Source of the DNA: Cenococcum geophilum 1.58
Lineage: Eukaryota > Ascomycota > Dothideomycetes > Gloniales > Gloniaceae
Assembly (NCBI GenBank): GCA_001692895.1
Contig: KV748207.1
Span: 434,001-498,000, forward strand
Reading direction: 5' to 3'
DNA: 64,000 nucleotides
Shown: piece by piece, positions 57,831-58,884 of the stretch
Layout of the letters: every line of letters begins with the position of its first letter
How positions within the stretch are numbered: the first letter of the stretch is position 1
Program-made: the position numbers and the translations under genes
The notes under the pieces: generated by a model
What the model was told of the DNA's origin: nothing
Databases searched by the model: none
Seen by the model: the letters and a program-made list of their open reading frames with translations, nothing else

Positions 57831-57867
57831 GTAGCGGTAGTGGTGGCGGTAGTGGTGGCGGTAGTGG

Positions 57868-58200
57868 TAGAGGTCGTCTGCAGCGCGACGACTGTAGACA
57901 GATGGTGGAGGTCATCTGCAGCGTGATGGCTGTAGACGGGTTGTAGAGGTCGTCTGCAGCGTGATGGCTGTAGACAGGTTGTAGAGGTCGTCTGCAGCGC
58001 GATGGCTGTAGACAGGTTGTGGTAGAGGCCGTCTGCAGCGCGACGGCTGTAGACAGGTTGTGGTAGAGGTCGTCCGCAGCGCGATGGCTGTAGACAGGTT
58101 GTGGTAGAGGTCGTCTGCAGCGCGATGGCTGTAGACAGGTGATGGTGGAGGTCGTCTGCAGCGCGATAGCTGTAGACAGGTTGTAGTAGAGGTTGTGATG
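57868..58200. repeat. GC-rich minisatellite, about 41-52 bp units
   Basis: Eight tandem units of GTAGAGGTCGTCTGCAGCGC followed by GATGGCTGTAGACAGGTTGTG, preceded by a GTAGTGGTGGCG trinucleotide-like run (57834-57870). Within each unit GTCTGCAG pairs with CTGTAGAC across a 6-8 base loop, so every unit can fold. It is GC-rich and CA/TG-rich, in contrast to the RIP-mutated surroundings. Confidence 0.85.
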
Positions 58201-58666: not shown

Positions 58667-58798
58667 GATCGCATAGTGTAGTTGGTTATCACGTCAGTCT
58701 AACAATTGTTGTGCACTGAAGGTGGGTGTTGGAACGTACAATCTCCGTACAGTTGTTAACAAACCGATAGGTCCCAGGATCGAGCCCTGGTGCGATCA
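58667..58798 (+). tRNA. tRNA-Val(AAC)-like gene with intron and an extra 49-bp insertion
   Basis: Acceptor strands GATCGCA (58667-58673) and TGCGATC (58791-58797) pair perfectly, with discriminator A at 58798. The D arm is GTGTAGTTGGTTATCAC. The anticodon stem TCAGT (58694-58698) pairs with ACTGA (58715-58719), with anticodon AAC at 58701-58703 and a candidate 9-nt intron, ATTGTTGTG, after position 37. The T stem CCAGG/CCTGG encloses ATCGAGC, which lacks the usual T54. Between the variable loop and the T arm, 45 extra bases (58724-58768) sit between two copies of AGGT (58720-58723 and 58769-58772). Removing one AGGT and the insert leaves a standard AGGTC variable loop. T runs from 58803 could terminate polymerase III. 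As it stands the RNA would carry the insert, so function is doubtful. Confidence 0.7.
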
Positions 58799-58884
58799 AA
58801 ATTTTTTATTTTTTATTTTATTAGTAATATAGATCAATTGATTTCATAGCATACTCTACAAAGCTCCCTTATAGCGATTGAAGT

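Follow-up and report, generated by a model that had tools for sequence, protein, structure and literature searches.

Results

The tRNA-Val(AAC) gene and its two extra pieces

The window, i.e., the whole stretch of 64,000 nucleotides of the Cenococcum geophilum 1.58 genome that was analysed (C32:434001-498000), contains a tRNA-Val(AAC) gene that is interrupted twice (Table 1). The Rfam tRNA model RF00005 matches it from the first to the last model position with 40.8 bits (gathering threshold 29), and its alignment places surplus bases in both the anticodon loop and the variable loop. ARAGORN, when introns are allowed, also reports tRNA-Val(aac) over the same interval. Default scans of the whole window (ARAGORN without introns and Rfam at the gathering threshold) listed zero tRNAs. 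When the 9-nt piece in the anticodon loop is excluded, every pair is standard in the acceptor (7), anticodon (5; TCAGT/ACTGA), and T (5) stems. Since this piece starts one nucleotide 3′ of the anticodon and its removal leaves the stem intact, it is a canonical eukaryotic 37/38 tRNA intron. The earlier description of the locus from its letters alone (hereafter the sequence-only reading) as a tRNA-Val(AAC) with a 9-nt intron at the normal position is, therefore, borne out. The A-box-like and B-box-like labels in Table 1 follow the usual consensus of these elements. Half a kilobase upstream of the tRNA lies a minisatellite (57864-58196) with a unit of ~41 bp (35-41 bp from start to start), and no Pfam family was found in three open frames near the tRNA.

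Table 1. Parts of the tRNA-Val(AAC) gene and of its 49-nt insert (positions in the window).
Feature	Positions	Strand	Basis
tRNA-Val(AAC) gene	58667..58798	+	RF00005, 40.8 bits; ARAGORN with introns
Exon 1, ending at position 37	58667..58704	+	cloverleaf
A-box-like sequence TAGTGTAGTTGG	58674..58685	+	sequence reading
9-nt intron at 37/38	58705..58713	+	removal leaves 5/5 anticodon stem TCAGT/ACTGA
Exon 2 (position 38, 3′ strand of anticodon stem, start of variable loop)	58714..58721	+	
AGGT, copy 1	58720..58723	+	
49-nt insert, read as a candidate GT-AG (mRNA-type) intron	58722..58770	+	scores like 17 mRNA introns of the same genome
Proposed 5′ splice site GTGGGT	58722..58727	+	compared with the 17 introns
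Proposed branch site GTTAAC, branch A at 58759	58755..58760	+	11 nt before intron end
Proposed 3′ splice site TAG	58768..58770	+	intron scoring
AGGT, copy 2	58769..58772	+	
Exon 3 (rest of variable loop, T arm, acceptor, discriminator A)	58771..58798	+	RF00005 alignment, stem pairing
B-box-like sequence GGATCGAGCCC	58777..58787	+	sequence reading
T6 run, Pol III terminator-like	58802..58807	+	sequence reading

The second piece lies in the variable loop. It is indeed bounded by AGGT on both sides, as had been noticed before, but the size of 45 bases given for it has to be revised: the two AGGT copies are 49 nt apart and the net insertion is, therefore, 49 nt (the 45 plus one copy of the repeat), with boundaries that can be slid across AGGT. 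The strings that had been singled out within it, i.e., TG/CA ends with TGTTGG at 58727, a CGTACA pair at 58735 and 58746, and the palindrome TTGTTAACAA at 58753, are all really there. An evolved long variable arm was considered and rejected, as neither 58720-58772 nor 58723-58767 is predicted to fold more stably than its own shuffles (z −0.02 and −0.48, respectively). A tiny mobile insertion and a tRNA-derived element had been among the options offered for the insert. Our DNA searches of the genome (177 Mb in 162 contigs) retrieved only the locus itself and no further copy, and a dispersed family of such elements is thus unsupported. At the 3′-end of the insert, a 21-mer recurs with three mismatches at three other places in the genome and its reversed control at none; however, by our own estimate ~3 such places are expected, no tRNA is present at any of them, and two of the three look like copies of one unrelated repeat.

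Intron-like signals in the insert

Cut at AG/GT, the insert reads AAG/GTGGGT...GTTAAC...GATAG/GTC and resembles a short spliceosomal intron, a feature unremarked in the sequence-only reading. As a reference we used 17 introns resolved in the proteasome and CCT genes of the same genome from the gaps between Pfam matches. They were kept from 21 inspected exon junctions, of which TCP_C7b was dropped as ambiguous and PR_C65, PR_C16, and PR_C10 for want of a convincing intron between the matches. TCP_C26 was taken as GC-AG with the shorter of two start choices, and PR_C6b was read by eye outside the junction listing. The 17 introns, whose boundaries were hand-picked from the reading frame and the known protein sequences with the splice-site style visible to the chooser, start with GT in 16 cases and with GC in one, have A or G at +3 in 15/17, G at +4 in 1/17, G at +5 in all 17, and T or C at +6 in 15/17. 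Their length is 47-62 nt in 13/17 (including introns of 47, 49, and 50 nt) and the branch A is found 10-18 nt upstream of the 3′ end, so that the insert, with 49 and 11 nt, falls within both ranges. Its splice sites and branch are like those of these introns, with two less usual traits: a G at +4, rare in the reference set, and a branch TTAAC instead of the usual CTRAY, although TTAAC also occurs in one of the 17. As side observations from these gene families, a CCT subunit gene (L082; C26:1046890-1047015) contains a probable 50-nt GC-AG intron, and one proteasome subunit scores 178 bits against animal chains vs. 166 bits against yeast.

In a scoring scheme trained on the 17 introns the insert obtains 8.65 bits; with leave-one-out scoring, seven of the introns score no higher and ten higher. 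This score was reached by 631 of 100000 random GT-AG 49-mers, by 939 of 100000 sequences with a shuffled interior, and, among the 132 AGGT-AGGT pairs with a spacing of 41-70 in the window (both strands), by the insert alone. A first scoring, in which CAAAC was named as the branch (the later one restricts the branch A and its distance), gave the insert 8.23 bits (6/17 for the own introns); this value was equalled or exceeded by 1527 of 200000 random and ~1.03% of shuffled sequences, and 5 of the 526 GT-AG 49-mers of the window, the insert counted, reached it. Since GT and AG come automatically with an AGGT repeat, independent support is provided only by the extended splice site, the branch, and the length, and amounts to about 1 in 100. 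When the insert was compared with the 17 mRNA introns and the U6 intron described below, the similarity of the best pair was equalled by 14 of 300 shuffles and, consequently, the insert shares no demonstrated origin with other introns of this genome.

A U6 snRNA gene with an apparent intron

The search for U6 snRNA, in which 47 of 8638 candidates were scored, yielded one match. It follows the consensus up to GGATGACA and fits poorly beyond; there, 48 nt of the form GTAAGT...ACTGAT...TTAG are followed by CGCTTTATC... and a T8 end. Judging from its sequence, the U6 gene thus appears to be split by a GT-AG intron of 48 nt, with GGATGACA before and CGC after it (L092 1571-1618; C12:2328641-2328688). 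This candidate obtains 9.79 bits on the scale used for the insert, and the Rfam fit of the U6 tail is better with the flanks joined than unjoined (59 vs. 52). U6 is a Pol III transcript. Since the U6 of this fungus is apparently intron-bearing and introns in U6 are documented (in the part of PMC5832005 used here), it is plausible that the spliceosome of this organism removes an intron from a Pol III RNA.

Search for other Val-AAC genes

A DNA search of the genome with the joined tRNA sequence found this locus only. The pattern GGTTAT plus TNACA occurs at 105 places, 100 of them among the matches listed, many of which belong to a dispersed repeat with strings like TAGTGCGGTTATATATATCGGCTACTAACA that is present on many contigs. 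ARAGORN was run on 33 of the listed places (30 excised loci, the Val-AAC gene, L052, and L056) and the others were judged by the matched string; the only tRNAs among the 33 are the Val-AAC gene and L052. In our reading, the latter (53.4 bits) is a Val-TAC gene carrying 15 extra nt at 37/38, whereas ARAGORN calls it Gln(ttg). A GGTCA variant of the pattern gave two places, neither of which is a tRNA according to ARAGORN. The broader pattern GGTYAT-N9-YTAACA gave 44 places, vs. 55 for its reversed control. We examined 32 of the 44 and none of the 31 besides the Val-AAC gene is a tRNA (cmscan at E 1, ARAGORN); of the remaining 12, eight share their 21-mer with an examined place and the other four deviate from one at just one base. 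Within the places examined, no intact synonymous gene was found, and the gene at 58667-58798 may, therefore, be the sole Val-AAC gene of the genome, with the proviso that these patterns would miss a Val-AAC gene that differs at the fixed positions or is absent from the assembly. In the genome search with RF00005 only 63 of 10103 first-look candidates were scored, so that it is not a full tRNA census; it listed 14 matches, the Val-AAC gene not among them. Two AT-rich tRNA matches (L004, with an N within its anticodon loop, and L013) look mitochondrial and lie on contigs of 0.8 and 1.7 Mb. A Val-tRNA covariance model built from three sequences picked up the gene in two separate parts, at 36.1 and 20.8 bits, which adds no new evidence because the joined gene was one of the three.

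Relationship of the insert to the rest of the gene

A likeness between the insert and the stretch of the gene from the D-loop to the variable loop was spotted by eye first and tested afterwards. In end-free alignments, it was matched in 157 cases when bases were shuffled and in 271 when blocks were (5000 shuffles each); in local alignments, under two other scorings, this happened in 372 to 2125 of 5000. As a control, the stretch was also used as its reverse complement, which was equalled in 258 of 2000 shuffles. An ungapped tandem copy of equal length was not seen in the gene (best 20/49). These alignments are, hence, suggestive at most of an old internal duplication behind the insert. In the tandem-duplication model of intron gain, the doubling of a stretch bearing AGGT creates a GT...AG intron. 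An internal duplication, if real, would fit this model.

Discussion

Of the three options that the sequence-only reading had offered for the insert, i.e., a tiny mobile insertion, a tRNA-derived element, and a second intron at an unusual site, the last is the best supported. We propose that the Val-AAC tRNA of this organism matures from a transcript of this gene in which two unlike introns are present, of which the spliceosome would remove the 49-nt and the tRNA splicing endonuclease the 9-nt piece, and estimate the probability of this reading, which is based on the signals in the DNA, at roughly 0.5, slightly on the favorable side. RNA polymerase III would yield one transcript, from which the spliceosome would excise 58722-58770 (AAG/GTGGGT...TTAAC...TAG/GTC). 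The leftover precursor would then take the cloverleaf fold, and the tRNA splicing endonuclease and ligase would subsequently take out the 9-nt intron, so that CACTGAAG, after the anticodon, would be joined to GTCCCAGG in the mature tRNA. The order is suggested by folding predictions: the free minimum-energy fold is a cloverleaf when the 49 nt are out and the 9-nt intron is still in, but not when both are in, where a forced cloverleaf is, however, only 2.8 kcal/mol worse than the free fold. Several points count against the proposal. In the predicted fold of the whole precursor, most of the branch and the start of the 5′ site are paired; the TTAAC of the branch and the G at +4 each occur in one of the 17 reference introns; and the sequence that lacks both pieces has a free fold other than the cloverleaf (−25.0 vs. 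−21.1 kcal/mol for the cloverleaf). The AG/GT junctions could have come about when an AGGT of the variable loop was duplicated or received an insertion.

The strongest rival is a single, ordinary intron of 57 nt at 37/38 (58705-58761), for which the endonuclease alone would suffice. In the mature tRNA, CTAACA would be joined to AACCGATAGG, with ACCGA as the 3′ strand of the anticodon stem and a variable loop of 6 nt. ARAGORN, which allows one intron, calls such a 57-nt intron, albeit one base off this register; TAACA is present at both junctions, 58757-58798 aligns at 93% with positions 34-74 of the joined tRNA, and a length of 57 nt is allowed by the range of 6-133 nt that excerpts of PMC4090602 give for eukaryotic tRNA introns. 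However, only four of the five anticodon-stem pairs form, with an A-C mismatch, instead of the five that remain intact with the 9-nt intron, and the cloverleaf is 4.8 kcal/mol weaker (−16.3 vs. −21.1 kcal/mol). The free minimum-energy fold of this product is likewise not a cloverleaf. It would also have an A at position 38, where the putative Val-TAC gene has a C, and its intron would be long compared to the 8-20 nt that ARAGORN gives for seven other tRNA genes of the genome, although cmscan assigns ~34 extra bases to an Ile-TAT gene. Chance would have to explain the perfect ACTGA-AGG and the intron-like signals, unless both copies go back to a duplication; such an event, if old and internal to the gene, would account for the likeness of the two copies. 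The tRNA would then leave its perfect copy unused, the opposite of what selection should favor. We consider a single 57-nt intron rather unlikely.

It is also unlikely, in our judgment, that the mature tRNA keeps the insert as a long variable arm or that the gene is a broken copy. According to the part of PMC4090602 available to us, a short insertion in one of many synonymous eukaryotic tRNA genes is usually deemed a sign of a pseudogene, but here a second Val-AAC gene was not found in the places examined, the stems are intact, promoter-box-like and terminator-like sequences are present, and the insert folds no better than shuffled sequences.

Still somewhat less probable is that the tRNA splicing endonuclease excises the 49 nt as a non-canonical intron in the style of red algae and nucleomorphs. 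Multiple ectopic tRNA introns are described for Cyanidioschyzon merolae and Guillardia theta, and in the latter many introns have no defined bulge-helix-bulge (excerpts of PMC3978253 and PMC4090602). Like our candidate intron, these are extra introns at non-canonical sites that sometimes occur beside another intron. Unlike them, the insert measures 49 nt against 3-24 nt in G. theta, although C. merolae reaches 11-69 nt, and a bulge-helix-bulge was found in none of the five registers, the best central helix having 3/4 pairs and the outer and inner helices at most 3/5. Moreover, in the passages of PMC3978253 and PMC4090602 consulted, such introns are supposedly rare in eukaryotes (PMC4090602) and the exceptions named are red algae and nucleomorphs, with fungi not among them.

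A tiny mobile element with a target-site duplication, suggested by the 4-bp direct repeat and the TG/CA ends, is very improbable because no second copy was found by DNA search of the 177 Mb, a situation different from that of a transposable element and from fungal introner-like elements, gained spliceosomal introns that have multiplied (excerpts of PMC4457414).

Nuclear splicing is taught as two separate systems, with the spliceosome acting on mRNA, and a protein endonuclease and a ligase on tRNA. To our knowledge, no spliceosomal tRNA intron is known. Among the literature matches listed, which comprise titles and the beginnings of abstracts and few subscription journals, a spliceosomal intron in a tRNA gene is likewise unreported. 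The sources, as far as excerpted here, limit eukaryotic tRNA genes to one intron (the tRNAscan-SE 2.0 paper, PMC8450103) and describe tRNA splicing as spliceosome-free (a 2026 review, PMC13149111). The 9-nt piece belongs to the canonical 37/38 introns, whereas the 49-nt piece differs from these by its position in the variable loop. Among the closest parallels to our two-intron reading are the introns of fungal U6 snRNA and U3 snoRNA genes, which are also short, GT-AG, with a branch-like site near the acceptor, and located in small structured RNAs; in the excerpts of PMC5832005, U3 and U6 are the sole RNAs of this small, structured type in which introns are known to occur often. The present case is distinct in that the host is a tRNA already carrying an endonuclease-type intron, and in the TTAAC of its branch.

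The sequence thus points to a probable new kind of host RNA for an mRNA-type intron. That it represents the first spliceosomal intron in a tRNA gene, and an essential, single-copy one that would need both the spliceosome and the tRNA endonuclease and perhaps arose from self-duplication of a stretch bearing AGGT, is a tentative proposition to which we give slightly less than even odds. For genome annotation, the locus illustrates that ARAGORN misses the tRNA without introns and, with introns, gives a different, single intron. If the two-intron reading is true, the spliceosome can act beyond U6 on a short Pol III transcript that is folded, the gene would be a clean case for intron gain in a non-coding gene, and valine decoding in this fungus would hinge on mRNA splicing.
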